Origin: Platanthera guangdongensis
Lineage: Eukaryota; Streptophyta; Magnoliopsida; Asparagales; Orchidaceae
Reading direction: 5' to 3'
DNA length: 64,000 nt
NCBI GenBank assembly: GCA_039583875.1
Contig: CM077147.1
Span: 112,650,440-112,714,439, forward strand
Of this stretch, positions 24,421 through 52,585 are shown piece by piece. The notes beneath the pieces were generated by a model. It was not told the origin of the DNA. It did no database searches and worked only from the letters and a program-made list of their open reading frames with translations. Each line of letters begins with the position of its first letter. Position 1 is the stretch's first letter. Made by a program: the position numbers and the translations under genes.

Positions 24421-25319
24421 AATAGCTAATTGTTTTTGACCCAGGTGACCGTGGGTCCTTGTTGATTTACATAATTGTAACTGGAAATTTAAGAATATTC
24501 AGGTTGATTCTTGTAACCTTTAGGATGATATCTTCTTGGTGGTATTATCCATTGATTAAAGGGATTGAAAGATTTGGAGTTAGAATTCTTATTGAAATTT
24601 CTGTTGAAATTATAGTTTTGATGTAACTGTTTTGAGTTCGACGATTTTAGTTTAGATCGTCGATCTGCGTTCGACGACCAGCATTGATATCGTCGATCCT
24701 GGTTCTCAGAATAATAGTGTCTATTACCTGGGTTCCACAATAGTCGATCTCTGTTCGACGATACATAATGATATCATCAATCCCCGTTTGCAGAGTGTTT
24801 AGGCTCAAGCTCTGGGTTCTGAGATCATCGATCGTCGTTCGACGCATAATGCTGAGATCGTCGAACTCGGTTCGACGATTTTTGTTCAGACTTACCTTTT
24901 TGTTCTTTTTTATTTATCTCAACTTGTTTTAAAACTTTGTTAACTGTTTTAATTTGTTCTGTATTCTTCTTACCTTGTTCTGAAATAAACTTTATAGGTT
25001 GTGAAAGGTGGTTTTTCTGAATGATTGGTGGTTCACTGGATGGTGCACCTAATCCTAACTTACTTCTATTAAGTCTAGCATTAAGTGTGCTGGTAATTTC
25101 TACTAGCTATTTGTTTCTTCCATTTAGTGATTCCTCTAGCTGTTTTGCTTTACTTAATTCAACTTTCAGAAAAGTGATTTGTTCACTATACATGTCTATT
25201 TCATTTTTCAATTTAGTGTTTTCTGATACTAAGCTATCATAATTAAATTGTTTATCTCTGAGAAATTTGATTTCCTTCTCAGATCTAATCAGATCATTAC
25301 ACATAGATTTAAAGTCATT
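24421..25319 (-). pseudogene. gag: Element C gag C-terminal part, containing 21-bp dyads
   Basis: Same frame as the gag ORF upstream after an in-frame TAA (25322-25320). Coiled-coil-like segment (MCNDLIRSEKEIKFLRDK, about 25304-25107), then a low-complexity region in which the peptide pattern S-S-N-x-D-R-R recurs (for example WSSNADRRSK near 24680-24655), then FNQWIIPPRRYHPKGYKNQP, shared with element E. The S-S-N-x-D-R-R units are encoded by TCGTCGA-N7-TCGACGA dyads. At least one unit has become a stop (CGA to TGA near 24827). Confidence 0.8.
24657..24878. repeat. Five 21-bp dyads (TCGTCGA-N7-TCGACGA) inside element C coding sequence
   Basis: Units at 24657-24677 and 24858-24878 are exact in both arms. 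Those at 24690-24710, 24741-24761 and 24825-24845 have one decayed arm. All keep the 7-7-7 geometry and all lie in the same codon register on the minus strand. Confidence 0.88.
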
Positions 25320-26525
25320 TTAAAAATCTTCAGAGGTAAAGTCGAATTCTTCTAATACCTGATCACAATCTGAACATTCTTCAGATTCTTCTTCTTCTGA
25401 GACATGCCCTGAAGCATTGATGGCCATTAAGCAGATTTCTTTGGCCCTTGCTTCCTCTTCATCTTCACTAGAGCTGGAGGAAGATGATTTTTCAGTGTCA
25501 CTCCATGTTTCTACAACAAACCCTCTTTCCTTCTTCTTGTGCTTGTAGGAGGATGGTTTGCTGGAGTGCTTCTTGGAGTCTTTCTCCTTTCTCCTTTCCT
25601 TATGCTTGTTTTCTGGACATTCTGGAAGAATATGTCCAGGTTTCCTGCAACCAAAACAGATAATCTCTTTAGAACGGGTTTGGTCATACCTTGGTTTATC
25701 ATAACTCCTTGATGATTCCCTTCTGAATTCTTTTCTCCTCATCTTGAAGAATCTCTTTGCAAAGAGACTCATCAATTCTTCGTTTGATGGAGAAGTTTCT
25801 GATTCTTCTGAAGCTTTGAAAGCTATATTCTGCTCCTTCCTAGTTGGTGTAGCAGTCTTTTGTTGCTCAGCTTCTCTTATTTTCAGCAGATGTTCACAGG
25901 ATTTCAGCTTTCCTAAGACTGATTCTGTAGTCATCTCATGTGTGTTTCTGGTCTCTCTGATAGGCCATATTCTAGAGTCCCATGAGCTGGGGAAGCACAT
26001 GAGAATATTGTCATTTATTTCTGTGACTGAGATGTCTTTGTCAAGAGTTTTCAACTCATTAACAATGAGACTGAGTCCATTATACATCTCAGAAACTTGC
26101 TCCGTTTCTTCATTTTTAAAGTTCTCATACTGGGAGATGAGATGAGCTTTCCTGTCCTTCCTTTCATCTGCTGATCCTGCAGCCATCTGGTTTAAGGAAT
26201 CCCAGATGGCCTTGGCTGATTCACATTCAGCTACTTTCTGAAATATGTCATCAGACATTGTTTGTGCCAGTATGTTCATGGCTCTTGCATCAGCAATCTT
26301 TGCTTTCTTGTATGCATCATTGTAGTCTAGAGGAGGTACAACAGTCATGTTTATGGAAGTACTTGTAGGGGCAGCTGGTAGTGGAGGTACTCCTGTTAAG
26401 ATGGAAGCAAAAATATCTTCATCAATAGAGTTCATAAAAAGCCTGATTCTTGCCTTCCAGATTCCAAACTTTTGCAAGTTGCAAACTGGAGGTCTGGTGC
26501 TTGCAAATTCCTTGCACTGTGTCAT
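25320..26525 (-). CDS. gag: Element C gag, N-terminal part (401 residues)
   Basis: ATG 26525 (MTQCKEFASTRPPVCNLQ) lies about 80 bases after the primer site. Capsid-type region: FGIWKARIRLFMNSID, AKAIWDSLNQMAAGSADER, MCFPSSWDSRIWPIRE. CCHC knuckle CFGCRKPGHILPEC near 25660-25615, flanked by Lys/Arg-rich sequence, then an acidic Ser-rich stretch (SSSSSSEDEEEA). The open frame ends at an in-frame TAA where element E continues (FKAEF), so the 401-residue product is probably a truncated form of a longer gag. Closest relative in the window is E gag at 43631. Confidence 0.87.
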   Translation of the reverse strand: MTQCKEFASTRPPVCNLQKFGIWKARIRLFMNSIDEDIFASILTGVPPLPAAPTSTSINMTVVPPLDYNDAYKKAKIADARAMNILAQTMSDDIFQKVAECESAKAIWDSLNQMAAGSADERKDRKAHLISQYENFKNEETEQVSEMYNGLSLIVNELKTLDKDISVTEINDNILMCFPSSWDSRIWPIRETRNTHEMTTESVLGKLKSCEHLLKIREAEQQKTATPTRKEQNIAFKASEESETSPSNEELMSLFAKRFFKMRRKEFRRESSRSYDKPRYDQTRSKEIICFGCRKPGHILPECPENKHKERRKEKDSKKHSSKPSSYKHKKKERGFVVETWSDTEKSSSSSSSEDEEEARAKEICLMAINASGHVSEEEESEECSDCDQVLEEFDFTSEDF

Positions 26526-26603
26526 GGTATAACAAAGAATAGAGTAAACAGATATATATCAGAGATCTTAGGTTTAGGTGTTAGCCTGTACAACCTTAAA
26601 AAC

Positions 26604-26619
26604 ACACCCTCTGATACCA
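26604..26619 (-). other. Primer binding site of element C
   Basis: Minus-strand TGGTATCAGAGGGTGT, two bases inside the LTR; initiator Met tRNA type. Confidence 0.88.
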
Positions 26620-26621
26620 AC

Positions 26622-28414
26622 TGAAAGTGAGGGATAGATACAGTTTACTCTAGAGGGGGGGGGTGAATAGAGTATATAAAAAAAATTGTTTAGATATATT
26701 GCTGAATTAAAATATAGGTACTTATATGAAAAAGGTAAAAGCAGAAAACTATCACAGCACAAGGCACAAAGAAAACACAAGGCAATCCATATGACACAAG
26801 AAATTTTATAGTGGTTCCCCAAATCTGGGTACATCCACTCTTCTACCACCCTGGTAGGAATCCACTTAGGTTTTAGATCAGGTGCCCTATCACCACAAGA
26901 TCTGCTTCAGGTAGATCTAGAAACCCTTCAGGCTTTTGATCAGGTGCCCAAAAACCAATAGGTTTTTGATCAGGTGCCCTATCACCAAGGAGTTTACTTT
27001 TGAAGGGAGTAATAACCATGTATACGAGAGGTTAAAGAAAAGTTGATGACAGTCTTCTCTTTCTCAAACACACTGATAAGACTATGTGGATTTGATGATG
27101 ACAAAGCTCCCCCTGAGATATAAAGTAGTTTCAGGAAGATGGAAGCTTTGTCCAGGGTGCAGGTCTTCAGATTGATGATATCTCCAAAATGCTTTTAGAC
27201 TGATATTGATTAGTTGTCTCTTGAAAGCTTGGAGCAGATGAAGAACTCTGATGAATATCTGATTGATGCAGAGTTCCTCCTTGTGTAAAAGCCTTTTTTT
27301 TACGTTCTATGTCTTTTCATATTCTCTGTGTATGTTGTATATACTGTCGGTTCTATCTATTCTGTTCAAACAATTAAAATTTGTTTACTGCATTCAATGC
27401 TGACGACCTAAAAATATTGTGCATTGAATTATTTCCCCAACTGTCCCTTGGAAAACATGGAAGGCAATAATCCTGGAGAAGATCAAAGTTAATGCTCCTT
27501 CTAATGGATACATTCAGAGAATGTTAGAGCATTAATTACTCAGGAATTAACGCATTAGGGAGGGGACAGAAAGCCGGAAATAACCAAGTCTGGAATCATC
27601 GAACAGTTAGCAGAATTCATCGATCTGAGTCCTCAGTTCATCGAGCTGAGATGATGTAATCGTCGAGCTGATAACAGACTTACATGCTTCAAAAAACTTT
27701 GTCTTCTCTGTCTGAAATTCGTCGAGCTGATAACTGGCTTCAGCGATCGTCGACCTGAGCTTTGAGTTCGTCGAGCTCATCTGGATTTCGTCGAGCTCAG
27801 CTCCTTACATAATTCGTCGACCTGAGAATTTGACTTATCCTTCTGAAACAGCTTCTGTGAACTATGTCGACAGATGGTTCTGTGTGTCGACACAAGTCCT
27901 TCTGGTGTTGACTGATACTGTCGACTAATAATCTATAAACTGTGTCGACACAAATCCTTCTTGTGTCGACTGAGCTGTTGTCGACTGATGGTCTGTGTAT
28001 TGTGTCGACACAAATCATTCTTGTGTCGACTGAGCTAGTGTCGACTAAAATTATCTGTGTCGACTGATAGTCTGTATGTCGACACAAATCTTCTGGGTGT
28101 CGACACATCCTTTCTATGTGTCGACACAATTTCTGCTACTGGTGTTGACACAACGTATCCAAAGTGTCGACATAATTTTGCTCAGTGTCGACTGATATTG
28201 ACTGTGTCGACACAACTGAGTCTGGTGTTGACCTATATTGTCTGTGTAGACACAACTGCTTGAGTCTCTGACAGGCTGTTGTAGGCTGATCCAAGTGATG
28301 TTGACTCTTTGCCTAGACTAAGGAAATAAACCTATGACCCTGACTATATATTTTGGGTCAGTGTAAGCAAACCTAATAGTGATCCTTACCCAAATCAGAA
28401 CTAGGGTTCCAACA
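26622..28414 (-). repeat. 5' LTR of element C (1793 bp)
   Basis: Starts TGTTGGAACCCTAG (28414) and ends at 26622 (plus TGAAAGTGAGG). U3 holds a mixed array: GTGTCGACAC and GTGTCGACTGA (27860-28255) nearest the LTR start, then TCGTCGAGCTGA half sites (27598-27835). Downstream are GATCAGGTGCC repeats (about 26990-26875) and the GGGGAACCACTATAAA box near 26820. Confidence 0.88.
27598..28255. repeat. Mixed palindrome array (GTGTCGAC and TCGTCGAGCTGA) in the element C LTR
   Basis: Two motif types occupy adjacent blocks: GTGTCGACAC/GTGTCGACTGA in the outer block and TTCGTCGAGCTGA-like half sites in the inner one. A half-and-half form (GTGTCGACTGAGC) looks like a hybrid of the two. Confidence 0.85.
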
Positions 28415-31400: not shown

Positions 31401-32543
31401 GATGTCGCCACCACCTTCACTAAGGTGGCGGCTAGTGATTTCCGGCGATGAGGCCGCCAGAATTGGCTCCTCCGGCGAACCCGAGCAAGAAGTAAAACTC
31501 GAAAAAATCGTCATTTCCTCACATGGTATCGGGCTGTCTCTCCTAAAAGATCTAAAAATCTAGTACGAGTAGAGGGGAGGCGAAACGGACCCGAATGGCG
31601 GTACGACGCCGAGGTTGGTGGCGGTTGGCCATGGTTGAGCTTCTCCGGCGATCTCCTGCTCAAAATCCCGATTCTCCACCGATAGCTTTTCTCCAAGACT
31701 CGTTCTCCACTCAATTCCACTCTCTGAAGCTGATGGAGTGGTCGGTTTGAGCTGGAAGTGGCTGTATAGGGAGATACAACCAAGGTGAGCTCGGTTTGGG
31801 GCTTTGGAGGCTTCACCCTTGGTGCCATGTGGGCCGCCCCCATGCTGCCAAATTCTCTGTAATTTACTGAGGAGGCCAACCAGCATCATTTTGGGCTGAT
31901 GGAGCCAAGGCCAAGTGACCTCTTCTTCTTAACTCACCTTCTCTCTCCTCCTTTGGGTAAATTCTCCGAAATGCCCCCCATGCATGCACTCTCTCTCCAA
32001 AACCAGAGGGGTAGGGATGGTCTTTGTCACTTGGGCTGGCCATGGGCCATGTTTGGTGGGCTTAGCCCAAGGAGAGTGGGCTTAGCCCTCATTTTCTCTT
32101 TTAGGTCAATTATGTTGACTAGGTTGACTTGAGTTGACTTGGTCAACCATGATGAGTCAGCTGACCCCACTTGGTGGTCATGGGTCTAATGACACCACCC
32201 AACTTGGGTTGGGTCAATGTGGTGCCCTACTTGGGCTAATTGGGTGTATAGGTATAGGTTTGACCAAATTAGGGCCATGGTTGACTTTGGTCAACTAGGG
32301 TCAAAAGGTTGACCTAATGACATGCCCTAAGGTCCACTAAGATTATTTTAGGGTTAGGGCAATGTGGTGGGGTCATGGTGTGGCTAGGGTTCTTATTTAG
32401 GCTAGTTTGTCTTTGGCCCCTTAGTGGGCCCCACATGGCTACAACCCATTACCTAGGGTCAAACCTAGCTAAATTTCCTATCACCCACCCCATGCCTAAC
32501 CCAATCTAAGTTGAGGGGTCTAAACGTAACATGGGATGTTACA
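28415..32543 (-). repeat. Long gypsy-type LTR or LTR remnant, noncoding
   Basis: No credible coding sequence in 4.1 kb. The right end, GGATGTTACA at 32534-32543, read on the minus strand is TGTAACATCC, a start typical of chromovirus (Tekay/Del-like) LTRs. Minus-strand TATA-like GGTTATATATAGGC lies near 30735. The left end abuts the LTR of element C and no TG terminus or primer site is visible there, so it may be cut. Most of it (from 29619) recurs at 52586-55481. Identification as a gypsy LTR rests on the terminus, length and composition only. Confidence 0.5.
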
Positions 32544-33439: not shown

Positions 33440-33488
33440 GTACGTCATTACGAATAATTATGACTGTTAGGGAATATCCTATATAAGG
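33421..33488 (+). promoter_or_regulatory. Proximal promoter cluster of the G LTR
   Basis: TGACGT (33421-33426), ATTGG (inverted CCAAT, 33428-33432), CCACGTG G-box (33434-33440) and ACGTCA (33442-33447) lie 30-60 bases before TATATAAGG (33480-33488). TGACGT...ACGTCA form an inverted pair around the G-box. These match known plant bZIP sites; use in vivo is untested. Confidence 0.65.
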
Positions 33489-34460: not shown

Positions 34461-34472
34461 ATCTCCCATATT
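34461..34472 (-). other. Polypurine tract of element H
   Basis: Minus-strand AATATGGGAGAT next to the LTR start, a weakened form of the ATAGGGGGAGAT seen in B, E and J. Confidence 0.7.
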
Positions 34473-35790: not shown

Positions 35791-37505
35791 TGTTGGATCC
35801 CTAGTTGGATTTGGGCTAGGTTCACTAATTAGGATGTTTGACCCATAATTGTATAGCCAGGGTCATGTATTTGAGTCCTAGAGTTTAGGCTAAGTCATTC
35901 GGTTCAACCTTGATGGACCAGCCAACAGAAGACCTCAGTGGACTCAAGACTTAGTTGAAATCAAAGTTCTGAATATAAGTTCGACGTTCGTCAAACTCAG
36001 CTTGACGATAGTCGTGCTCCACTCGATGAACTCAGAGTTAATTCTTTAAGTTGAGCTCGACGATATTCGAGCTCAAGTCGACGAAGTCTGGAGTTCAGCT
36101 TCAACAGTTTCTTTAAAGTTTACTTTCGCTGAACTCAGCTCGACGAAGACAGATTCTCAGCTCGACGAACTTGGATCGCAGATATGACAAGTCATTCACA
36201 GAATACGGTTCGCTATGCTCAGGTCGACGAACCGAATTTCTCTGGTCGACGAACAGAATTTCTCAGCTTGATGAACTTGGACCGCAGATATGGCAAGTCA
36301 TTCGCAGAATGCGGTTCGCTGAGCTCAGTTCGACGAACAGGATTTCTCTGGTCGACGAACATGAATTCTCAGCTTGACGAACTTGGAACTCCGGTCGACG
36401 AATTCTATCCAGAGGTTGACGAATTCTATCCAGTCCTAGACTTAGAGTCTTTCCCTCATTTTTGTCCTTGTTCCATATTATTTTGCAGTAATTTCCTGAG
36501 TAATTAATGCTCATATTCTCTAAATATATACGTTATTGGCACCATTAATTATGGTTTTCATCAGGGTTAATTACCTGCTTTATTTATTGGGTCAGTTAGG
36601 GAAACTCATTAAAAGATAATATTCTCCAGCCGATTTTCATTCTCTAGGCAATCAACCTTCAATGCTTAGAATTCCAATTTTCAAAGGAGAATTTTGACAG
36701 AGAATATAAAAGAGATTTTCTCTTTTCAGACGACAAGAAAAGCAACAAGAAAGCAATACATACATAGAGAAGACTTACAAAAAAATATTCAGAATCTTCT
36801 CTTTGCAGAAAAAATCTTGTTTTCCCTTGATCTTACCGAAGACTGAAGAAGAACAACAATCACTATCATGAGTCTTCTTTAACTTCAACTCAAGGATATT
36901 TCAAGGACAACAAACTTAAATCAGTCAAAAGTCCCTGGATCATTTCAAGTTAAGGATGAAGACATAAACCCTAAGCAAGGCTCCAAGTGATTTTTGAAGG
37001 AGCCTTGACAACAACAATCCACTAGTCTTCTCTGTTGATTAGAGAAAGAGAAGACACCATCAAATCTCTCTCCCCGTCCTGTACAAATGGTTTATTATCT
37101 CCCTTCAAAAGTTTATTCTTTGTTTTTGCGCACCTGATCAAAAGCTCAAAGGGTTGTGAGATCTCCCTAGAAATAGATCTTATGGTGGCAGTCACCTGAT
37201 CAAAAACATGCTAGAGGATTCCTTCCAGGGTGGTAGAAGAGTGGATGTACCCAGGTTGGGGAATCGCTATAAAATTCTTGTGTCGTCTGGTTGTCTATTT
37301 TCTTTGTGCTGTGATAATTTAGTTTTGTGCTGTTATAGTTTAGTTTGCTGTGCTGTGGTAGTTTCACTGACACTGTTTTCAATTTTCTGTTACTATTATA
37401 GTATCACCTATTTTATTACTCTGATATATTTAAAAATAGCCAAAAGTTTTCATTACTCTATTCACCCCCCCTCTAGAGTAAATCAGATATATCCCCTATC
37501 TTTCA
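35791..37505 (+). repeat. 5' LTR of element I (1715 bp)
   Basis: TGTTGGATCCCTAG start and CTATCTTTCA end. U3 holds a dyad at 35988-36008 with both arms decayed (TCGTCAA, TTGACGA) and GCTCGACGAAC half sites to about 36430. GATCAGGTG-type repeats lie near 37130-37205, the GGGGAATCGCTATAAAA form of the conserved box at about 37257-37273, and the C-tract box near 37464-37480. Confidence 0.9.
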
Positions 37506-37507
37506 AT

Positions 37508-37632: not shown

Positions 37633-39444
37633 TGAAAGTGATGTGTTAGATCTGAAATACTCTAGCGGGGGGGGGGGGGGGGGGTGGTGAATAGAGTATC
37701 CTAAAATCCTTTTGAAAACTTTACAGCTTTTGCTATAAATAAAAACTGTAGAATAATAAAATAAATAACCACAAACATACAGCAGATCTAGCTAGCACAA
37801 ACACAGCAACAACAAAAGAAAGGACAACCAGACAACACCAGAAATTATAGTGGTTCCCCAACCTGGGTGCATCCACTCTTCTACCACCCTGGTAGGAATC
37901 CACTCAGATTTTTGATCATGTGCCTGACACCAATAAGCTATTGATCAGGTGCTCAAAAACCAAACCTCAAGTCTTTTGGTCAGGTGACTTGCAACCAGGA
38001 ATAACTTTTGAAGGGAGTTATAACCCTTTATACAGTGGGGGGATGAGAGATGATTGTGTCTTCTCTTTCTCAATAAACAACTTAGAAGACTTAAGTGGAA
38101 ATGATTTTAGCAAAGAGCTCCCCCTGAGATGTAGAATGTTTCGGGAAAACTGGAGATTTGCTTTAGGGTGATAGGCCTTCAATCTTTAAGCCTTGACCAG
38201 AAAGGATCTTCAGGAACTTCTTGGCAGATGGAATTGACGTTGTCCTTTGAAGTGTCCTGGAGAGTTGAAGAATGAAGACTCTTGATTTTTGATTGAATGT
38301 TATTCTTCTTCAGATAGCAGATGTTCTTCTGGTCTAGGGCTTCTTTTCTTTATCAGAGTTCTATATTGATAGTGAGCAGAGAAATCCTTGATTTAGACTG
38401 ATTGTGTTACTGACTATCTGTGTCTGTATATTTCCTGTCAAGAAATTCTCTTTCAAAAATTGAATTCTCTCCATTAATTGCCCCTGCATTGGCCCCAAAA
38501 AACGGCAAGCAATAATCCTGTAGAAGACCATAATCAATGCTCTTTCCAACAGTTATATTCAAAGAATATTTGAGCATTAATTACACAGGAATTATTACAG
38601 TAAGAAGGGGCAGAAGGAAGGAAATAACTAAGTCTGGATTCGTCGAATAGATAACAGAAATCGTCGAGCTGAGTCCACAGGTCGTCGATCTGAGAAGCTA
38701 AGTTCGTCGACCAGATGACTTCTTTTCGTCGAGCTGAGTTCCAAGATCATCGAGCATAGAGTAGAACTGCATTGATTAGAAACTTTGATAATTCTGTGTA
38801 TGGAGTTCGTCGAGCTGATAACTGGTAACTGATTTCGTCAAGCTGATAACTAATTTCGTCGAGCTGAGAACTTGTTGACAGAACTTCTAGGGAATGTGTC
38901 GACATAGCTGTTGTGTTGACAAAAAATTGGAGTGTGTCGACACAAGACCTGTGTGTCGACACAGTTGCTGGTGGTGTCGACTTAGTTGATGTCGACACAA
39001 TTGATGTTGGTGTCGACACAAGTCTTGCTTATGGTGTGAAGTGTTGAAATGAAGTACCAAGAAATCGTCGACCAGAGAACTAAGTTCGTCGACTGGAGTC
39101 TAGAGAATAAAGTCTGGACTTGGAATGCTGAAGGTAGAGTCCAAAGATCGTCGACCTAAGAATCAAGTTCGTCGAGCTCAGCTCAGAGAATTTTCTCTGA
39201 GATCGTCGAGCTGAGCACGTCTATCGTCGACCTGAGTTCGACGAACGTCGAACTCATTTTACTGAGTCTTTGGAAAATCTCGAAATCTTGAGTCTCTGGC
39301 AGTTTGATGATGGCTGGTCCATGAGATATTGAAACTAAGGACTTGGCCTAGACTCTAGGACACAACTATGACCCTGACTATACATGATGGGTCACAAGAT
39401 CCTAACTTAGTGAACCTAGACCAAATCAAATTAGGGATCCAACA
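37633..39444 (-). repeat. 3' LTR of element J (1812 bp)
   Basis: Read on the minus strand: start TGTTGGATCCCTAATT at 39444, end at 37633 (plus TGAAAGTGATG, aligning with the inverted end of the E LTR). Array 38638-39256 mixes TCGTCGAGCTGA half sites, a full dyad at 39224-39244 and a GTGTCGACAC block (38895-39020). An 18-base G run lies at 37667-37684, where other LTRs have 6-9. Confidence 0.88.
38638..39256. repeat. Mixed palindrome array in the element J LTR
   Basis: Half sites GTTCGTCGAGCTGA/ATCGTCGACCTGAG surround a central GTGTCGACAC block. One full 21-bp dyad (39224-39244) lies about 200 bases from the LTR start, the same place as in E and I. Confidence 0.87.
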
Positions 39445-41501: not shown

Positions 41502-43444
41502 TGTTGGATCCCTAGTTGATTTGGGCTAGGTTCACTGACTTAGGATGTGACCCATCATGTATAGTCTGGGTCAAGTTTTTGTCTTAGAGTCTAGGACAGT
41601 CCTCTTTCTCAACTTCAGATGGACCAGCCTTCTTCAAGACCATCAAGAACTCCAGATCTATCAGTTTTTCAGACTAATTGATATGAGTTCAACGTTCGTC
41701 GAACTTAGCTCGACGAAGGGAGTTCTGCGCTCGACGATCGTGAGACAACTCGCAGTGCTGAGCTCGATGAACTTTGTTCTTTACTCGACGAACACCGGGA
41801 TTCTACATCAAGATTTTCAGGACTACTTCAGAATTTCTCTAAGTCCAGCTTCATGCTTCGGTCGACGATTTATATTCTGAGCTCGACGAACTTGGATCTC
41901 AAGTTCACAGCTTCTCAGGTCGACGAATGCTAATCTCTACTCGACGATCTTTGTACTCAGGGAATCTGTGTCGACACTTAGGGTTTGTGTCGACACCAGA
42001 CGATTTGTGTCGACACCAGGATTTCAGTCGACAGCAGCTTATGTCGACACCAGGATTTGTGTCGACACCCAGATCAATCTGTCAACAACAAGTTGTGTCG
42101 ACACAGCATTTCAGCAGATGCAGAGTATTTCGTCCATGTCCAGAACTTTTCTCAGTTCAACGAATTTTATTCTCAGCTCGACGAATTCGGTTCTCTGCTC
42201 AACGAATAATATCTGTCTGATATTGAAGATCATTTGTTCAACGAATGAAGACTGTCAGCTCAACGAACTCATCTCAGCTCGACGAACTCAGCTCAGCTCG
42301 ACGAACTCAGCTTAGCTCGACGAACTCAGGCTCAGCTCGACGAACTTCAAACTTAGCTCGACGAATTATGTTCTTCTATCGACGATTCCAGACTAGGTCT
42401 TCTTCCGTTCCCGTCTCATTCCATGGCGCTGATTCCTGGACATTTAATGGAAGTTCTTCACATTATACTACCGTTAGAATACGCAGTTAATCCTGGATTA
42501 TTACATGCCATTTTTCCATGGAAATAGTTGGGGAAATAATTAATTGCTGCTTCCTTTACAGGCCGTCTGCCATTACTGCTCGATATTCAAAATTCGAATG
42601 TTTCTTATGAGACAGAGATATATACATAAATAGTCGGTAATACAGACACACAACAGCATACATCATACAACATACAACAAAAATAAAAAGACAGACAGTG
42701 ATTCAGACAATACAAGAAAAATGATTTCATTCTTGGCCCAGAGAAAAACTGATCAAGAAGAAGAACACTACATCAATATCAAGAGTCTTCTTCATCTGCA
42801 CTTTACTCAGGATAACTTCAAAAATAATACATTCATATCAGTTGCAAGAAGTTCCTGAAGACTTTCTCTGGACCTGGAATTCTAGGTCTTTGAAGACCTA
42901 TCACCCTGAAGCAGTGCTCCAACATTCTTCCTGATTCATTCTACATCTCAGGGGGAACAAAGCTGCGAAACAACAATCCACAAGTCTTCTCATTGACTTG
43001 AGAAAGAGAAGACCTCATCACCCTTTCACTCCACCTCTATACAGGGTTTTAATTCCCTTCAAAATTATTCTGGTTGCAAGTCTCCCACCAAAAGACTTGA
43101 GGGTTTAGTTTTTGGGAACCTGATCAAAACCCCATTGGTGCCAGGATACCTGATCAACCCCTTCCTGCAGTGGATTCCTACCAGGGTGGTAGAAGAGTGG
43201 ACTAGCCAGATTTGGGGAACCACTATAAAATTCTTGTGTCGTATGGTTGCTTTCTTTTCCTTTTTATTTTCTGGCCTTACTATATGAATGTGCTGTGATT
43301 AGATAATTGCTTCATCTTGGTTATTGTATTTGCTTCCCTGCACACACACACCTAAAATACAACAGCAGTTGTAAAAGTTTTTAAAATCACCATATACTCT
43401 ATTCACCCCCCCTCTAGAGTATATCAGATCTAGCTGCACTTTCA
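41502..43444 (+). repeat. 5' LTR of element E (1943 bp)
   Basis: TGTTGGATCCCTAG to GCACTTTCA. One dyad at 41696-41716, GCTCGACGAAC half sites, a GTGTCGACAC block (41968-42105), then a run of GCTCGACGAACTCA direct repeats (42262-42375). GATCAGGTG-type repeats (inverted ACCTGATCA) near 43120-43165, the GGGGAACCACTATAAAA box at 43216-43232, the C-tract box near 43405-43420. Confidence 0.92.
41690..42390. repeat. Dyad, half-site and GTGTCGACAC array in the element E 5' LTR
   Basis: Order from the LTR start: one complete 21-bp dyad, scattered CTCGACGA half sites, a GTGTCGACAC block, then about six GCTCGACGAACTCA half sites in the same direction at 15-25 bp spacing. Confidence 0.88.
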
Positions 43445-43446
43445 AT

Positions 43447-43462
43447 TGATATCAGAGGGAGG
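43447..43462 (+). other. Primer binding site of element E
   Basis: TGATATCAGAGGGAGG; initiator Met tRNA type with a G-to-A change at the third base, two bases after the LTR. Confidence 0.85.
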
Positions 43463-43540
43463 TTGGTTAATAATACCACATCTTCTAGGTTGGTTAATAA
43501 TACCACATCTTCCAGGTTGGTTAATAATACCATACCTGAT
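43462..43540 (+). repeat. 27-bp tandem repeat, about 2.7 units, just after the primer site
   Basis: GTTGGTTAATAATACCACAT plus seven bases repeats, the second unit almost exact and the third diverging after AATACCA. It overlaps the 3' edge of the primer site, so it may have arisen by slippage during reverse transcription. Not seen in C or I. Confidence 0.85.
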
Positions 43541-43630
43541 TGGTTGTACAGGCTAACACCTGAACCCAAAGATCCCTTAGTTAGATCTCTTTGTCTTTAT
43601 TCTGTTATTGGACTTATCCTTCTCACAGAC

Positions 43631-45739
43631 ATGACCCAAAACAAGGATTATACAAGCATCAGACCTCCAGTGTGCAATCTTAATAAGTTTGCCATCTGGA
43701 AGACAAGAATTAGATTATATATGAACTCCATTGATGAGGATATTTTCTCTGTCATTTCAACAGGTGTTCCTCCAGCTCCTACAACTTTTGCTAGCACATC
43801 AACTAATCTGAGTGTAGTACCACCTCCAGACAATACTGAAGCCTATAAGAAAGCCAAGATGGCTGATGCAAAGGCTATGAATATTCTGGCCCAAACAATG
43901 TCAGATGACATATTTCAGAAGGTGGCTGAGTGCACCTCAGCTAAGGCCATTTGGGACTCTCTCAATCAAATGGTAGCAGGCTCAGCTGATGAAAGAAAGG
44001 ATAGGAGATCCAGTCTCATTTCTCTCTATGAGAACTTCAAAAAGGATGAGACAGAATTAGTGGCTGAGATGTACAATAGATTAAGTTCAATCATCAGTGA
44101 ACTCAAGACTCTTGACAAGGACATCACCTTAACTGAGGTGAATGACAAGATACTGATGTGTTTCCCCAGTTCATGGGACTCCAGAATCTGGCCAATCAAA
44201 GAAGCCAGAAGCCTCAATGAGATCTCAACAGAATCTTTGCTAGGCAAGCTGAAGTCATATGAGCAGCTTGTCAAATCAAGAGAGGCAGCAGAACAGAAGG
44301 CAACTACCCCAGTTAGGAAGGAGCACAGCTTGGCCCTCAAAGGTTCTGAAGACAATGAAACATCTACCTCCAATGAAGAGTTAATGAGTCTTTTTGCCAA
44401 AAGATTCTACAAAATGGCAAGAAAGGACTTTAGAAGAAAATCATCCAGGCAGGATGATAAGCCCAAATATGACAAGACACCAACCAAGGAGGTTGTGTGT
44501 TTTGGATGCAGAAAGCCTGGGCACTATATTTCAGAATGCCCAGAGAATCAGAAAAAGGACAAGGGCAGGGACAAGGATTCCAGAAGAAAACAAAGTAGCA
44601 GACCCTCCTCCAATAAGTATAAAAGGAAGGACAAAGGATTTGTTGCTAAGTCCTGGAGTGACACAGAAGAGGAAACATCCTCCTCCAGCTCCAGTGAAGA
44701 AGAGGAAGAAGCCAGATCCAAGGAGGTGTGCCTAATGGTAATAGATGCCTCCAGAAGCAACTGTGGATCAGAAGAGGATTCTGAAGATGAAGGTGCCTCA
44801 GACTCAGAGGCTGATCAGGTGATTTCTAGTTTTGACTTCAATTCTGACTTATTTAAAGCAGAATTTAAAACTATGTGCATTGATCTAATAAACTCAGAGA
44901 AAGAAATAAAAACCTTGAGGACTAGACTAGAAAACCTTGAATCTGTCAACACAGAAAATAGAAAACTAACTGACCAATTGACACTAGCTAATGAACAGAT
45001 AATCAAGTTAAAATCTGAATTATGTGAGGCAAAAAAACTTGAGCAATCTCTAAATGGGAGAGGACTCAAGCTGATGGATATCACAAGCACAGTAAATGCC
45101 AGATTAAATGGCAGGCTGGGCTTGGGTGCTTCATCAGGTTTACCCCCCATAATAAAGAAGAATATACTTTCTACTCCCATAAAGTTTATCACTGCTAAGG
45201 GTAAAGAGAAACTAACTGAAAAACCCAGGTCAGAAAACAAGTCAAACCCCCTAGAAAATAGAAACAGAAAACAGAAGAAAGCTATTAAAAACCAAGTTCA
45301 GCAGAATTCGTCGAACTTAGATCGACGAAATCCAGCAAGATCGTCGAACCCCGATCGACGAATGCTGAACGCAAACTTCAGGAATAATTATCCGTCCTAC
45401 TGCGATCGACGAACTGTGTATGGTTCGTCGAGCAGAGGTCGACGAACGTGGGATGCAGAAAATGACCATGGTCATTCTCTGAGTGGAGGTCGACGATCTC
45501 ATCCCCTTTCGTCGAACTCTGGTCGACGAACTTACAATAATTTGTCGATCCCAGAACGACCAAATTTAAATCATTTCTCCTATAGAAATTTTAAAACAGC
45601 TAACAAGACATTTAATCCAGTAGCTGATTGGATAATCCCACCTAGGAGATATCACCCTCTATGGTATAAGTCTCAACCTGCCTTATCAGCCATTTCCAGT
45701 TTTACTTTTCAGCCAAACCAAGGACCCAAGGTAACCTAG
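43631..45739 (+). CDS. gag: Element E gag, intact open frame of about 702 residues
   Basis: ATG 43631 (MTQNKDYTSIRPPVCNLNKF) aligns with the starts in C and I; the open frame extends to 43463 but that part is the tandem repeat. Capsid region FAIWKTRIRLYMNSID, AKAIWDSLNQMVAGSADER, MCFPSSWDSRIWPIKE. CCHC knuckle CFGCRKPGHYISEC near 44500-44540, Lys/Arg-rich flank, acidic Ser-rich stretch, coiled-coil-like segment about 44875-45070, then a region of S-S-N-x-D-R-R units (45308-45529) encoded by 21-bp dyads, and WIIPPRRYHPLWYKSQP. TAG at 45737-45739 ends it. This is the only complete gag in the window and is unusually long for copia. Confidence 0.88.
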   Translation: MTQNKDYTSIRPPVCNLNKFAIWKTRIRLYMNSIDEDIFSVISTGVPPAPTTFASTSTNLSVVPPPDNTEAYKKAKMADAKAMNILAQTMSDDIFQKVAECTSAKAIWDSLNQMVAGSADERKDRRSSLISLYENFKKDETELVAEMYNRLSSIISELKTLDKDITLTEVNDKILMCFPSSWDSRIWPIKEARSLNEISTESLLGKLKSYEQLVKSREAAEQKATTPVRKEHSLALKGSEDNETSTSNEELMSLFAKRFYKMARKDFRRKSSRQDDKPKYDKTPTKEVVCFGCRKPGHYISECPENQKKDKGRDKDSRRKQSSRPSSNKYKRKDKGFVAKSWSDTEEETSSSSSSEEEEEARSKEVCLMVIDASRSNCGSEEDSEDEGASDSEADQVISSFDFNSDLFKAEFKTMCIDLINSEKEIKTLRTRLENLESVNTENRKLTDQLTLANEQIIKLKSELCEAKKLEQSLNGRGLKLMDITSTVNARLNGRLGLGASSGLPPIIKKNILSTPIKFITAKGKEKLTEKPRSENKSNPLENRNRKQKKAIKNQVQQNSSNLDRRNPARSSNPDRRMLNANFRNNYPSYCDRRTVYGSSSRGRRTWDAENDHGHSLSGGRRSHPLSSNSGRRTYNNLSIPERPNLNHFSYRNFKTANKTFNPVADWIIPPRRYHPLWYKSQPALSAISSFTFQPNQGPKVT
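45308..45529. repeat. 21-bp dyads inside element E gag coding sequence
   Basis: Exact dyads TCGTCGA-N7-TCGACGA at 45308-45328, 45341-45361, 45425-45445 and 45509-45529; one with a decayed left arm at 45392-45412; an extra half site at 45490-45496. All share one codon register, encoding S-S-(N or S)-x-(D or G)-R-R. Confidence 0.93.
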
Positions 45740-48700
45740 GTCAAGAACAATTGAGCTTTATTTTTTGATGCAGGTACAGGTGAAGAGCTGTCCAAGGCTA
45801 AGTCAGACCTGGTACCTGGGCAGTGGCTGCTCCAAGCACATGACTGACAGCAAAACAAATCTCTCCAGCTATAAGTCCAAGCTAGGACCAAAGGTGATAT
45901 TTGGAGACTCAAAGAGTGGTCAGTCAGAAGGGTATGGAAGAGTAAGCATTGGAGCAGTGACCTTCAAAAAGGTAACATGTGTAAGAGGACTTATACATAA
46001 CCTTATATCCATAAGTCAATTATGTGATGAAGGTTATCAGGTACATTTTAACTCTACCTCTTGCTCTATTATAAATGATAAAAACCAAACTGTTTTAATT
46101 GGACTTAGACAAGGAAACATATATTTTGTAGGTTTCATTTCTGCCACAACTGATATTTGTTTACTCAATATCACTAGTAACCAAAATGAGTTATGACACA
46201 AAAGTCTAGGACATGTAAACCTTAAGAACATATCTATATTATCTAAAGACAACCTTGTTAGAGGTTTACCTTCTGGTCCCTACAAGAAGGAAAGCCTATG
46301 CAGGGCTTGTCAACTAGGCAAGCAAACTAAAACTAGTTTCAAATCCATTAATAAAAGTGATTCACCTAGGATATTGTATCTGCTTCATGTGGATCTTTTG
46401 GACCCATTGCAGTACAAAGCCTAGGAGGGAAGTCTTACACCTTAGTCATTGTTGATGATTTCTCTAGATTCAGTAGGGTAGCCTTCCTGAGAGCTAAGTC
46501 AGATACATTCAAAGTTCTTACAGATTTTCTCAGGACCATACAGATTGAGTTCTCTACTCATGTTGCATTGATCAGAAGTGATCATGGCACAGAGTTTGAG
46601 TCTCTTGTTATGCATGAGTTCTGTGAGAAGGAAGGTATCAGGCAGTGCTTCTCAGCTCCTAGAACTCCCCAACAAAATGGGGTAGCTGAAAGGAAAAATA
46701 GGACACTCATTGAAGCTGCAGGTACATTGTTAGCAGATGCATACATGCCTCTATCCTTTTGGGAAGAAGCTATAAACACAGCTAACTATGTCCTGAACAG
46801 ATGTCTTATACATAAACTAAAACACAAGACCCCCTATGAATTACTTAAAGAAAAGAAACCTAAAATCACTTACTTTAAAGTTTTTGGTTGCATATGTTAC
46901 ATCCACACTAATAACAAAAGATACATTAGAAAATTTGAGGCTAAGGCTGAAGAAGGGATTTTTCTAGGATATTCCCAAGTAAGCAAGGCCTATAGGGTTT
47001 TCAACAAATCATCCCTTAAAATTGAAGAATCTGTCCATGTGTCTTTTGATGAAGCTAACATGTCTTATAAGGAGAAAGACATTTCTACCAATAGTTTTTT
47101 GCAGGTTTCACCAATGTGTGAGCCAATGGATGGACTAAACCTTACCCAAGAGGTTCCAACTCATCCCACTCCACAGGCTGCTGAAGGTAGTGAAGAAGAA
47201 GTCCAAGAGGAAGTAACTGAACTTCCATCAACAGCCAGTACCATTCCTCAAGAGGAATTATTTACAGAAGTTGTTGCTCAACCAACTCCACAAACTGATC
47301 TTATTACACTTAGAGATCACCCCAGATCTCAAGTGATTGGAGACATTTCAGTTGGTGTACAGACAACACATCAGCTCAATCAAGACTTGATACATGCCTG
47401 TTTTCTCTCTCAAATTGAACCTCTCAACATCCATGAGGCTGAGCAAGATCCCCACTGGATTCTTGCAATGCAAGAGGAACTAAATCAATTTGAGAGATGT
47501 AGAGTTTGAGATTTGGTTCCAAGACCCCATAACTACCCAGTTATTGGAACCAAATGGGTCTATATGAACAAAATGGATGCACAAGGGAACATAGTAAGGA
47601 ACAAGGCTAGACTGGTTGCCCAAGGCTATAGACAAGAGGAAGGAATAGATTATGACCAAACCTTTGCCCCTATTGCAAGGTTGGAGGCCATTAGAATATT
47701 CCTATCCTATGCTGCATACAAAAAGTTCAAAGTATTCCAGATGGATGTTAAGAGTGCCTTCCTGAATGGTGTACTTCAAGAAGAGGTTTATATTGAACAA
47801 CCTCCAGGTTTTATCTCTCTAACTCAACCCTCTTATGTTTACAAATTGCATAAAGCTCTCTATGGTTTAAAGCAAACTCCAAGAGCTTGGTATGAGACCC
47901 TAGCTAGCTTTATTTTAGAGCATAAATTTACAAGAGAAACCATAGATAAAACCCTTTTCACTAGACATCATAAGGACCAAATCTTATTGGTACAAATATA
48001 TGTGGATGACATTATTTTTGGGTCTACTGATCCCAAATTGTGCACGAGGTTTGCTGACCTCATGCATTCCAAATTTGAGATGAGTAGCATGGGTGAGCTT
48101 TCCTACTTCCTTGGTCTCCAAGTGAAGCAGCTCCCTGATGGTATCTTCCTCTCCCAATCTAAGTATGCTAAAGAGCTTATTAAAAAGTTTGGGATGGGTG
48201 ATGCCTCAGGAATGAAAACACCTATGGCTACCAATGCTGTTGTGGATTCTGATGCAGCAGGGAAACCTGTAGATCAGAAACTTTATAGGGCAATTGTTGG
48301 ATCCCTAGTATACTTAACAGCTAGCAGGCCTGACATAATGTTTGCCACATGCCTTTGTGCTAGATTCTAAGTGAATCCTAAAGAATCACATCTTATTTTT
48401 CTAAAAAGGATTTTGAGATATATAAAGAGTTGTCCTAGTTTAGGACTCTGGTATCCTGCAGAGTCAGAATTTGAGTTAACTGGATACTCAGATGCTGACT
48501 ATGCTGTATGTAGAGTGGACAGGAAAAGTACCTCTGGAACTTGCCTGTTCCTGGGTATGAGACTTGTCTCTTGGTTTTGCAAAAAGCAGACATCTGTGTC
48601 TACATCAACTGCTGAGGCAGAGTATATGGCTGCTGGCAGCTGCTGTTCACAGATGCTATGGATACAAAACCAACTCCTAGATTATGGTATCAACTTAAAT

Positions 48701-48952
48701 AATTCAACCTTATTTTGTGATAATACAAGTGCTATTGCTATAGCTCAGAATCCAGTTTATCATTCTAGGACTAAACATATTGAAATAAGACATCATTTCA
48801 TTAGAGATAATGTGGACAAAAAGAAAATTAACTTGATCCACATTCCTACTGATCTACAGAGAGCAGATATCTTCACCAAGCCTTTGGATGAGAAAACCCA
48901 TCTGTTCTTTATAAATCAACTGGGAATGATTGATGGAGAAGAGTTAAATTAA
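45740..48952 (+). pseudogene. pol: Element E pol (protease, integrase, RT, RNase H), damaged
   Basis: Protease motif WYLGSGCSKHMT has Asp changed to Gly, so the catalytic residue is lost. The pre-integrase region (CRACQLGKQTK), integrase (SDHGTEF, NGVAERKNR), RT with intact YVDDIIFG near 48000, and RNase H (DADYAV, STAEAEY, FCD) follow. Lesions: +1 shift near 45760, TGA at 46194-46196 (Trp in C), one-base deletion near 46400 in LFGP, TGA 47507-47509 (Trp in A and B), TAA 48368-48370 (probably Gln). The two shifts cancel, so gag and the main part of pol share one frame, as in A and B. Confidence 0.92.
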
Positions 48953-48965
48953 TTTCTGTTTACAT

Positions 48966-49245
48966 TCAACGAATTTTCCAGAGTTCGTCGAACGAAGTTC
49001 GACGAATTAGGGAAAGTTTGAGAGATTCTCATCGAACGGAGATCGACGAATTCTCTGTGTGGAAACAATTTTCGTCGACCGGAGATCGACGAACCTTGCT
49101 TCAGAAACCATTTCGTCGAACGGAGTTCGACGAACTGTTTTCATTTCTTCTAAATGAGTTCGACGAACTACTCACCTCTAACTTATTTCATCAACCTCAG
49201 TTCGAAGATCTGTCTCTTTTCATGGAACGGAGCTTGTCGATTCAT
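48966..49245. repeat. 21-bp dyad array between pol and ORF2 of element E
   Basis: Four dyads: 48985-49005, 49029-49049 (left arm TCATCGA), 49072-49092 and 49113-49133, plus half sites. TTCGTCGAAC-GGA-GTTCGACGAA at 49112-49134 is a perfect inverted repeat with 10-bp arms. The position matches the GTGTCGACAC arrays of A and B. Confidence 0.93.
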
Positions 49246-49350
49246 ATTCTGAAAATCTTATATCTAGGTTTTCTTCGACCTCCGTCCCGCGCTTTCAGTT
49301 CCTTTGCTCTTGATCGCCGTTTTCTCTGTGATTTTCTTTGCAGGTCATCA

Positions 49351-52108
49351 ATGGCGATTCCTCCAGAAGCACTTGCGGCGATGAAGTTTGATGCAGCATT
49401 CTCCATGGACTTTCAGTCCTTCCAACATTCCGATCCAATTTTTCTGTATATCCTTGAATTACTTGAAGAATTGCATCTCAAGGATTTCATGACACGCAGC
49501 ATCAAGCTACACTCAACCGAGATAAGAGAATGGGTGTACACTGCCACAGTTTCTGATGACGAAAATCTGACAGGACATATTGGAAACACTGCCGTTTCCC
49601 TGTCTCCAGCAGTACTCTCTGAAATTTTTGGACTGATCAATGGTGAGGACAACTTGGAAATGGACACTGAGGAATATGCTGATATGTTGAAAGTAATGGG
49701 TTTCTCCGGCAACAACCCTAATAAGCTTCTGAAGAAACAACTATCCGCCGCCTATCAATTTTTGGCCGACATTGTGGGGAAAATTCTAATGTGAAAGCAC
49801 TCGGCACATGACTATATCACTCGCCATCAATTCCTGATTATGTGCGCAGTGCTCAACAAGCGTCAGGTCGATGGGGGCATGGTCTTCTTTGACCTAATCA
49901 AGAAAAGAACAAGCAAGAAGGAAGTCTGCTACGGCAGAATCCTGGGGATTTCCCTCCAGGAAAAGGCCAGTGAATGTTTGGTCTCCCCGACCACATTCAT
50001 CAACGCCAGCAAGCGCCTCACCTGCGCCTTATTTGGCCGATGGGAGAGGACAATCACCAAACCCTCCAAGGGTTCCTCCTCCTCCATCAATGCTTCTGAG
50101 AGCACCAGGACCGTCAAGGTCACTCCCCACCCTGACACTGAAGAGGTCATTCCAACTACCAACTCTCTTCCCATTCCTCCTGCACCTCACTTGACTCCAC
50201 CTCAACATCAATCTCCACCGCCTGATTTTACACATCTCCCTACACCTCCAGTTGCCCCCACTAAAACACATATTCCCTCACCTCCTCAATCCCCTCTTCC
50301 CCCACACCTATCCACTATTCCATCCTACACAATACCCACTGAACCACAACTTGTTCTCCCTCCACTATCCCCTCCACATATTCTTCATTCCTCCTTTGCT
50401 TCTATCCCCTCCACCACTCCTTCTCCACTTCTGGACTCCTCCACCATTCCCTCCATCATCTCTATTCTGACTCCTCTTATTAAATCACTCATCACAGAGG
50501 CCATTACACCTCTGGTGAATTCCATTCATTCTTTATCTGCACAAATCACAACCCTTTCTGCCGCCCCCTCTTCATTCAGGGGCTTGGCTCCAGGTTCTCC
50601 TGAACCCAGGCAGGGGGAGATGCTCCATGATGAAGCTGGTGCATCAGCTGTAGAGGTTAATACAGTTGATAATGAAGATTCAGTTGATACAGATACAGTT
50701 TTTGACACCACAGTTACAATTGATTCAGTGCTTGATAATGCACTTGCAGTTACAGATATAGCAATTGATTTTATTCAATTCATGGACACTGACAGTAGCC
50801 TTGATGAGTCAGTAGATATAATAACAACTGCTGGTGATTTCCTTATAAATCCCACAGTTAATTTATCTTAGATACTTCATATCTTTGATCCTGTATATAT
50901 GAAGCTTCCTTCAGTAGAGGTTGCTAAGCCATATTTGGCTATTGTCCAGTATACCTCTCCAGCGAGTCCAGCAGTTGCCAAGCAACTTTGTGACACCTTT
51001 GCTGCTCCTACTGCTGTCCCAACTCCTGTGTCTATTCCAGAAATCTGCCTTGTCCCAGACTTTGTCATGGATGATTCTCCCATGTCTGATCTGGATGAGC
51101 TCATTCTGCCAGACATTGAAGAAGAGAACAAGGCAGCAGCTGCAAGCTCTGTCTCTACTGCTGTTGAACCCTCACCCTCTGAACCTTCTATCCTCCCTCA
51201 AGAAAAACTTCTTATCATTCCTGATGCCACTCTGAGGAGGTTGAATGCTCTGTATGATAACCCTCAGAGTTCAGATTCTAATGATGATGATGAATCAGAT
51301 GAGGAGGCTGCTAAAAAGAAAAAAGAAGTTGCTCTCTAAGAAAATGAAGGCTCCTCCTCCTGCTCGCAAGCCTAATCCCACTGCAGACACTCCATACTAT
51401 ATTCTGCACAATGTTGCTCCTTACAAAGGGATGCATGCATGGATGTGGCTATCAAAGAATCAGCAAAAAGAGAGGAAGAGGAGTAGGAGATACTCTCCTC
51501 CCCCAGTTCATAGATACAGAAAGGATCCTCCTCCTCCTCCTCCTCCTCCTCCTCCAGCAGCAGGTGCCTCTGGCTCTGGCTCTCAGAGATCTGCTCCAAT
51601 TCAAACTTATCAGAGACAAACATGGAGATCCTCTAGTGGTAGTCAGCCAAGGCCACCATCTTCAGGCAGTCAACACACTCAACAACAATAGCAGCAGCAC
51701 CAGGGATCCAAGGAACATGAAGCTGAAAGGCCCTATTCTCCTCCTGAAGATCCAGAAACAGCCAACACAGCCAGAATGGCAAGGTTCCAAGAGATCATTG
51801 GCTTATCTCTAATCAACAAAGCTAAAGCTGAAGGAAAGGACACAACAGGCTTAATTACTATGTCTCAGTACAGGAGAGATAAGCTAAAGAGATTTGGGAA
51901 AGCAAACAAGCTACTCAATGTTGATGAGTACATGCATCTTCACCCAGAAGCAGTTGTCCCCAGAGCCACTTCACTGAACATCATAGGGGCATCTGACATG
52001 AATATAACCAAGGCTCAAGCTTCAGATCCCAATAGGGAAATCATTTTCAAGAAGCAAGGAGATAAAGCACCAGAAGTCAAGACAAAACAGAAGAAGACAA
52101 AGAAGTAA
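49351..52108 (+). pseudogene. Element E ORF2, extra ORF downstream of pol
   Basis: I take ATG 49351 (MAIPPEALAAMKFDAAF) as the start, although the frame is open from 49018, because the upstream part is the dyad array and TTTTCTTTGCAG, a possible splice acceptor, ends at 49343. N-terminal region: IVGKIL, HDYITRHQFLIM, RILGISLQEKASE, FGRWERT, a spacing shared with A/B ORF2. Then a long Pro/Ser/Thr linker, acidic segments, a KKKK stretch, a run of about ten prolines, Gln-rich tail and the conserved end MARFQEIIGLSLINKAKAEG to KTKQKKTKK. Stops at 49792-49794, 50869-50871 and 51689-51691 (CAG to TAG by context) and a frameshift near 51330. No signal peptide or membrane segment. Function unknown. 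Confidence 0.78.
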
Positions 52109-52288
52109 TTTTTGTGGTTATTTCATTTCTGCCTCTATTTCAGACTGTTTCTTGCATTAAAACAAAGCTTGTATGTGTATATATATCTGATGCATGTGTT
52201 ATAAATTCTCTGCCAGATATATCTCTGAATTTTGCTTTGTTTTTCTGTTTGTTCTTTGCTTGGAGTCTCTGTTAATGACCTCACCCAA

Positions 52289-52300
52289 ATAGGGGGAGAT
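52289..52300 (+). other. Polypurine tract of element E
   Basis: ATAGGGGGAGAT immediately before TGTTGGATCC of the 3' LTR. Confidence 0.9.
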
Positions 52301-52585
52301 TGTTGGATCCCTAGTTGATTTGGGCTAGGTTCACTGACTTAGGATGTGACCCATCATGTATAGTCTGGGTCAAGTTTTTGTCTTAGAGTCTAGGACATTC
52401 CTCTTTCTCAACTTCAGATGGACCAGCCTTCTTTAAGACCATCAGGAACTCTAGATCTATCAGTTTTTCAGACTAATTGATATGACTTTGACATTCGTCG
52501 AACTCAGCTCGACGAAGGGAGTTCTGCGCTCGACGATCGTGAGACAATTCGCAGTGCTGAGCTCGACGAACTTTGTTCTTTACTC
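52301..52585 (+). repeat. 3' LTR of element E, truncated to about 285 bp
   Basis: Matches the first 285 bases of the 5' LTR, including a dyad at 52495-52515. It stops at TTTACTC, where the sequence switches to the duplicated segment. Confidence 0.94.

Follow-up and report, generated by a model that had tools for sequence, protein, structure and literature searches.

A 21-bp dyad of fixed spacing in unrelated LTR retrotransposons of the orchid Platanthera guangdongensis, a candidate site for a dimeric host factor

We analysed 64,000 nucleotides of Platanthera guangdongensis (GenBank assembly GCA_039583875.1, contig CM077147.1, positions 112,650,440 to 112,714,439, forward strand), hereafter the window, which carries the long terminal repeat (LTR) retrotransposons referred to as A, B, C, E, I and J. 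A 21-bp dyad, TCGTCGA-N7-TCGACGA, recurs in C, E, I and J. It lies in LTRs, in gag coding sequence and, in E, before an additional open reading frame (ORF2). A sequence-only reading of the window had described the dyad in these four elements and suggested a dimeric DNA-binding site, with a small-RNA target or an RNA hairpin as the alternative. Our motif scan of the window found every unit that it had named. The dyad is not restricted to the four elements, and also occurs in Ty3/gypsy and non-Sirevirus Ty1/copia elements of the host genome. All evidence presented here comes from sequence analysis of one genome, and publications are cited from the parts available to us.

By its domains and termini, E is a Ty1/copia Sirevirus. 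It matches Retrotran_gag_2 (E-value 1.7e-21) and the RVT_2 reverse transcriptase (2.5e-75), and in E, B and J a terminal AGGGGGAG precedes AT/TG at the 3' LTR, which is a Sirevirus signature (PMC2829016, Bousios et al. 2010). Copies of the polypurine tract (PPT) upstream of the 3' LTR number three in the B stretch searched, two in J and one in E. C also matches Retrotran_gag_2, and A and B align to E in tblastn searches (66-67% in the reverse transcriptase). E, B and A have the additional ORF2 after pol. The body of E and the LTR arrays of the window are as follows.

41502..42500, + strand: 5' LTR of E, array part, starting with TGTTGGATCC; contains the dyad, half-sites and RTGTCGACAY
41696..41716, + strand: exact dyad in the 5' LTR of E, 194 bases from the LTR start
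43463..45739, + strand: gag open reading frame of E, with Retrotran_gag_2 and a zinc knuckle match under its cut-off
46568..48952, + strand: three open reading frames of E with integrase, RVT_2 reverse transcriptase and RNase H region
52495..52515, + strand: exact dyad in the 3' LTR of E, 194 bases from the LTR start (52301)
27660..28213, - strand: LTR stretch of C, with 6 half-sites and 8 RTGTCGACAY
35988..36401, + strand: LTR array of I, with a 2-mismatch dyad at 35988 and 9 sense half-sites
38640..39244, - strand: LTR array of J, with an exact dyad at 39224-39244, 13 sense half-sites and 5 RTGTCGACAY
11257..12105, + strand: 5' LTR array of GTGTCGACAC in B, a related Sirevirus with the other palindrome and without the dyad

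The LTR dyad begins at a near-constant distance from the LTR start, as had been proposed; the measured offsets are 194 (both E LTRs), 197 (I) and 200 (J) in place of 195-201. No exact dyad was found in the LTR stretches of I and C or in the B LTR. The stretches also differ in palindrome content: B has RTGTCGACAY only, I has the TCGACGA type only, and E, J and C have both. The 5' LTR array of E contains 14 sense half-sites TCGACGA, interspersed with six RTGTCGACAY palindromes at 41968-42104.

The window contains 12 exact units of the dyad, starting at 24657, 24858, 39224, 41696, 45308, 45341, 45425, 45509, 48985, 49072, 49113 and 52495. With up to two mismatches the number rises to 21, versus 0.06 expected (mean of dinucleotide shuffles), and with up to three mismatches 35 dyads are listed; the I, J and E LTRs contain further imperfect ones. 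Units with one to three mismatches start at 24690, 24741, 24825, 35988, 45392, 45476, 45542, 49029, 49146 and 49188. The arms are strong, and the seven-base centre is variable.

We then counted the arms in the host genome (4.25 Gb in 274 contigs, the window being on contig 1), where all repeat counts are lower bounds. There are at least 258,569 exact dyads of spacing 7, versus 6 for the reversed control. The same arms occur at least 3,888 times at spacings 0-6 combined (control 739) and at least 12,642 times at spacings 8-14 combined (control 791). Many of the listed cases in the latter set belong to one tandem family of spacing 13, and some also contain a spacing-7 dyad. Spacing 7 hence accounts for 258,569 of the 275,099 exact inverted pairs at spacings 0-14 (94%), and its predicted dominance holds. 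It also holds in ten 5-kb loci chosen without reference to the motif, which contain five exact inverted pairs, all at spacing 7 and none elsewhere in 0-14; together with the window they give 17 inverted pairs at spacing 7 and none at others. In a further 20 loci of 10 kb, all picked for dyads from the first genome positions listed, 49 inverted pairs have spacing 7, one has 5 and one has 14. Direct repeats of the arms peak at spacings 14 and 15, which correspond to periods of 21-22. The spacing-13 family has the same arms, mostly 13 bases apart, in a unit of about 34 bp, for example at 2604125-2604402 and 4374319-4374414 of contig 1.

Two of the arrays are embedded in gag.

45308..45562, + strand: array of E within gag, with seven in-frame units, of which four are exact and three have 3 mismatches
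24657..24878, - strand: gag-embedded array of C, 5 units; this copy has stops in the array frame

Five units had been counted in each; this number stands for C, while E has six over 45308-45529 plus the one at 45542. The E units are located in the 3' part of gag at spacings of 33, 51, 33, 51, 33 and 33, every unit is exactly seven codons long, and the exact ones read S-S-x-x-x-R-R. Comparable arrays are present in the gags of C and of the genome loci L006, L011 and L019, and also in L023. Between gags that show 43-58% identity in their first alignments, the unit spacings are conserved.

The codons of the units differ from those of the surrounding gag. Outside the units of E gag, TCG encodes none of 81 serines and CGN none of 43 arginines; inside, TCG encodes 9 of 11 serines and CGN all 13 arginines. 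As these units had been picked by nucleotide similarity, which makes the comparison circular, we repeated it with units picked by the peptide SSxxxRR only (18 units in six gag copies). TCG then encodes 35 of 36 serines inside versus 23 of 410 outside (Fisher 2e-35), and CGN encodes 34 of 36 arginines versus 31 of 210 (Fisher 3e-21). The Fisher values overstate independence because the gag copies are related, and the outside class still includes partly decayed units. Codons of conserved residues were also compared between E and four other copies. Inside units, the serine codon is unchanged in 31 of 35 cases and the arginine codon in 29 of 32; the corresponding figures outside are 63 of 146 and 50 of 76. 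E is CpG-poor outside the motifs (observed/expected 0.17), and 72 of its 149 CpGs fall inside motifs that cover 279 of its 10,799 bases. Judged from this codon usage, the nucleotide sequence of the gag units is kept beyond what the peptide alone demands. The gag/pol boundary of E has a 43-base stretch over the gag stop (45731-45773) with a GT start and a GCAG end. A GT...GCAG stretch of about 40-50 bases, resembling a very short intron, is present in all five copies inspected (E, C, L006, L019 and L023), and may be related to the recoding or bypass known from Sireviruses.

A further set of arrays precedes ORF2.

48985..49208, + strand: pre-ORF2 array of E, 3 exact and 3 decayed units at spacings of 44, 43, 41, 33 and 42
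49258..49353, + strand: TATA-like TTATATCTAGG of E, pyrimidine stretch with CAG, and ORF2 ATG at 49351
18521..18967, + strand: pre-ORF2 array of RTGTCGACAY in B
18896..18903, + strand: TATAAATA in the pre-ORF2 region of B, 106 bases before the ORF2 ATG at 19002
12251..12258, + strand: TATAAATA after the LTR array of B; also at 23278 in the 3' LTR
2173..2555, - strand: pre-ORF2 array of RTGTCGACAY in A, with TATAAATA at 2180

The array before E ORF2 was correctly recognized by the sequence-only reading, except that it has six units rather than four. Pre-ORF2 arrays are located upstream of a TATA box in four of six copies, the box being TATAAATA in A and B and TATAAAA in L005 and L023; in the other two, E and L018, the looser TATA-like TTATATCTAGG takes this place. 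The two strands of the window together contain 14 copies of TATAAATA. In A it precedes the ORF2 ATG (2073) by 107 bases on the minus strand, and in B two further palindromes lie between TATAAATA at 18896 and the ATG. TATA words follow some of the LTR arrays as well: TATAAAT comes after the array in B and L014, and TATAAAA is located about 310 bases on in I.

Directly before the ORF2 ATG of E there is a pyrimidine-rich stretch with CAG (49340-49351), which resembles a 3' splice site and is found in all four E-family copies shown (E, L005, L018 and L023). It suggests that ORF2 mRNA of the E family may be spliced. The B ORF2 (19002-19964) has a weak match to PF20167 (putative plant transposon protein), under the curated cut-off. 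Its relatives are two sequences in the orchid Platanthera zijinensis (best identity 54%) and one unnamed database protein with PF20167. AlphaFold2 prediction with the unchanged B ORF2 and four homologues reached a pLDDT of 39.6, too poor for judging the fold. We also looked by eye for helical phasing in the array spacings (33, 51 and 84 in gag, where they are forced to multiples of 3; 33-44 before E ORF2; 18-22 and 36-40 for GTGTCGACAC), and no single phase fits.

The dyad is shared by elements of different superfamilies. L010, L013 and L017 are Ty3/gypsy elements. Each has RVT_1 and RT_RNaseH, L010 and L017 also have SH3_Tf2-1, and L010 and L013 have Retrotrans_gag; the LTR pairs of the three elements are 98-99% identical. 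Exact dyads and the palindrome TGTCGACA were counted in the LTRs of all three. In L010 and L013, the U3 region contains exact dyads in repeats about 101 bp long, and TGTCGACA is present in the same LTR. By eye, corresponding positions of these repeats are taken by the dyad in some cases and by TGTCGACA-type words in others, seemingly interchangeably. L014 is a Ty1/copia element with a reverse transcriptase 35% identical to that of E and a different PPT, and its LTR has exact dyads upstream of the TATAAAT. The centres and flanks of the gypsy and L014 LTR dyads differ from the Sirevirus ones. Queries with the E and B ORF2 gave no match in L010, L013, L017 or L014.

We inspected the flanks of the 49 exact dyads in the 20 dyad-selected loci. 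Nineteen match gypsy LTRs (three weakly, in L004, L015 and L016, at 68-76%), eight match the L014-like LTR, and 13 match Sirevirus parts, namely LTR, gag or linker. The remaining nine have no flank match: two are unplaced (L009 and L012), and the seven in L005, L006 and L011 probably belong to Sirevirus LTRs, as judged from adjoining gag/ORF2 and like centres. The best LTR matches between lineages are at most 33 bp long, with one of 69 bp. As this similarity is motif-sized, it looks like convergence, and we consider convergence a better account of the separate lineages than exchange, with seeding by an exchanged fragment still conceivable.

A second palindrome accompanies the dyad in the same LTRs. 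Among the palindromic 10-mers of the window, GTGTCGACAC is the most frequent, with 120 copies, and the degenerate form RTGTCGACAY has 128 matches versus 0.08 expected. Pairs of GTGTCGACAC 5-20 bases apart number at least 979,632 in the genome, versus 1 for the control. In the ten unselected loci, the most frequent palindromic 8-mer is TGTCGACA, with 60 copies, of which two loci contribute 58. The zinc deficiency response element (ZDRE), to which bZIP19/23 bind, has RTGTCGACAY as its published consensus (PMC9643250, PMC4773103). GTGTCGACAC fits this consensus, and the match by itself is no proof of F-bZIP binding. A third TCGA-centred palindrome, TACTCGAGTA, has 19 copies in the window and is arrayed in another repeat, whose two copies (29619-33439 and 52580-56377) are 97% identical.

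The fixed spacing with a varying centre, the codon constraint, the unrelated carriers and, in several cases, the placement upstream of a TATA box are best explained by a dimer on double-stranded DNA. We regard it as somewhat more probable than not that the dyad is bound as double-stranded DNA at LTR promoters and internal ORF2 promoters, with a dimeric factor of the host as the most likely binder, and that it is one half of a two-palindrome code. The dimeric site of the sequence-only reading is thus the best-supported interpretation, with partial support from spacing, codons, lineages and TATA placement. In the model that we infer, a host-encoded dimeric transcription factor would contact the dyad, and the dyad and GTGTCGACAC would constitute a cis-regulatory code of several unrelated LTR retrotransposon lineages. 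The LTR arrays would sit upstream of the presumed LTR promoter; Sireviruses with ORF2 would have a second array upstream of an internal ORF2 promoter; and the E family has a third at the gag end, with the motif limiting codon choice. A bolder version, which we put forward tentatively and at somewhat less than even odds, is that unrelated superfamilies converged independently on a two-word promoter code, the 7-7-7 dyad for a host dimer plus perfect zinc-deficiency elements, which would tie LTR and internal ORF2 transcription to host regulators. The genome would then amount to a sponge, in which several hundred thousand or more ZDRE-like sites accompany over 250,000 dyads, with the code written into the gag frame of one lineage.

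Several observations weigh against this model. Directional half-sites, approximately CTCAGSTCGACGAA, make up most of the LTR arrays in E, I, J and C: the LTR dyads reported earlier are exact in E and J and have two mismatches in I, but among the 42 sense half-sites only two have an exact left arm, and TCGTCGA occurs only twice in these arrays. A strict dimer would therefore not always be needed; one arm with its flank, in which position -5 is T in 42 of 42 half-sites, may suffice, or binding may be in tandem. No known factor was matched to the dyad. Everted arm pairs occur as well. In the window and the ten unselected loci there are nine, all at 12, because neighbouring gag units are 33 apart (33 minus 21); in the 20 selected loci they are found at 0 (13 pairs), 1 (8 pairs), 3 and 9-14. 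The gag array is distant from the LTR promoter; of the five copies shown, L019 alone has a TATA word after the array. The TATA patterns used gave no match in the E LTR stretch, where a looser TATATACATAAATAG is located at about 42620, and in the gypsy LTR only TATAAC was found, some 360 bases beyond the last motif. As A and B are closely related, their TATAAATA placement is not independent evidence; more generally, the copies share ancestry. The 20 loci were picked for dyads, and lineage shares among them are not genome shares.

The binder could instead be encoded by the elements themselves, ORF2 or Gag acting on the dyad as VANC proteins act on VANDAL motifs. The arrays adjoin ORF2 and lie in gag, the Sireviruses B and E have partly different palindromes at the same places, and there is the precedent of one family whose dense motif arrays are bound by its own protein (PMC5735166). 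We nevertheless consider an element-encoded binder unlikely: the gypsy elements L010, L013 and L017 and the copia element L014 carry the dyad and have no E/B ORF2 match, which disfavours ORF2, earlier named as a possible binder, and points to a host protein; the VANC21 motif, on the other hand, shows high enrichment only in the family to which it belongs (PMC5735166). Another possibility is that the dyad works as RNA, forming a 7-bp stem and a 7-base loop in genomic RNA for packaging, recoding or production of small interfering RNA. The gag, pre-ORF2 and U3 units would all fall in genomic RNA, and palindrome clusters of maize Sireviruses attract small RNAs (PMC10760457, PMC5311732), but the decay pattern of the units disfavours the hairpin. 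In 28 imperfect gag and pre-ORF2 units there are seven C>T changes, which keep a wobble pair, and nine G>A changes, which do not; eight pairs are wobble as against 40 broken ones, so that wobble is not in excess, and neither of the two pairs altered on both sides still pairs. Moreover, the LTR half-sites are unable to fold in this way, GTGTCGACAC has no room for the usual loop, and the varying centre of the 21-mer speaks against a conventional 21-nt small-RNA target. Both RNA alternatives of the sequence-only reading are thus disfavoured, and we rate a role as RNA quite unlikely.

The motifs might also have no shared function, having spread by tandem duplication of palindromic words and by recombinational exchange of LTR segments. 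Several arrays do score as tandem repeats, and exchange of a short seed between elements would be compatible with the data. Against such an origin, which we judge very unlikely, stand the genome-wide spacing-7 rule, the gag codon constraint in a CpG-poor background, the unit spacings conserved across diverged gags and the motif-sized similarity between LTRs of different lineages. Finally, the dyad could be an auxin response factor (ARF) site of the IR7 type (two inverted TGTCNN, seven apart) or a relative for another B3 protein. The spacing is equal, GTC/GAC stand in the same register, ARFs use IR7/8 (PMC10690724), and the arms are also directly repeated at periods of 21-22. However, TGTC is called an invariable core in that paper and the dyad has CGTC; we hold this identity to be highly improbable. 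A literature search by ARF element sequence gave no match. The site for a host dimer remains our preferred interpretation.

Compared with known systems, the dyad resembles an ARF IR7 element in its inverted half-sites, which in the latter are 7 (or 8) apart, and in the shared GTC/GAC register, but its halves are CGTC where the ARF core is TGTC in both (PMC10690724). VANC proteins undo silencing through binding to motifs that are repeated in their own VANDAL transposons (PMC5735166). The likeness lies in a short motif forming dense arrays in a transposable element and tied to control of the element; the VANC21 motif, as described there, is enriched in one family and is mainly non-coding, whereas the dyad occurs across superfamilies and also in coding sequence. 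VANC binding is demonstrated, while the dyad is defined here by its sequence. The companion GTGTCGACAC fits the ZDRE consensus, and shares only the letters GTCGA with the 21-bp dyad. ZDREs are reported in host ZIP and NAS promoters, two of them in the ZIP4 promoter (PMC9643250, PMC4773103), whereas the palindromes here reach tens per LTR. In the literature available, we found no publication joining ZDRE, bZIP19 and retrotransposons, and a broader look for such a link or for the dyad arms, in the part inspected, apparently yielded none on point. The ZDRE fit predicts LTR activity in zinc deficiency.

The closest known system is the repeated motifs (RM) of Sireviruses. Palindromic RM are known from 13 Sireviruses, where they form boxes of high copy number in the upper LTR half; elements that have an env-like gene carry RM upstream of this gene too, and two of them also at its beginning (PMC2829016). 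Palindromes of maize Sireviruses are small-RNA hotspots (PMC10760457, PMC5311732). As PMC2829016 describes palindromic boxes in the LTR and before the env-like gene, our arrays in the LTR and before ORF2 are of a known kind. RM have a CGG-CCG core, except in Tnd-1, and are called absent from classic retrotransposons (PMC2829016); the dyad has TCGTCGA/TCGACGA arms around a fixed seven-base centre, forms an array in gag coding sequence, and is also present in gypsy and non-Sirevirus copia LTRs. The gag array, the sharing between superfamilies, the ZDRE-fitting palindrome and the TATA boxes downstream of pre-ORF2 arrays go beyond the available parts of PMC2829016. Whether Sirevirus palindromes act as control sites, and what binds them, was left open in that paper; the strict spacing, the codon constraint and the use by three unrelated lineages make this question testable. 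An internal ORF2 promoter was proposed there but not located, and the TATA boxes suggest where it would lie. Should convergence and a common binder be confirmed, the sharing across superfamilies would amount to a new finding.

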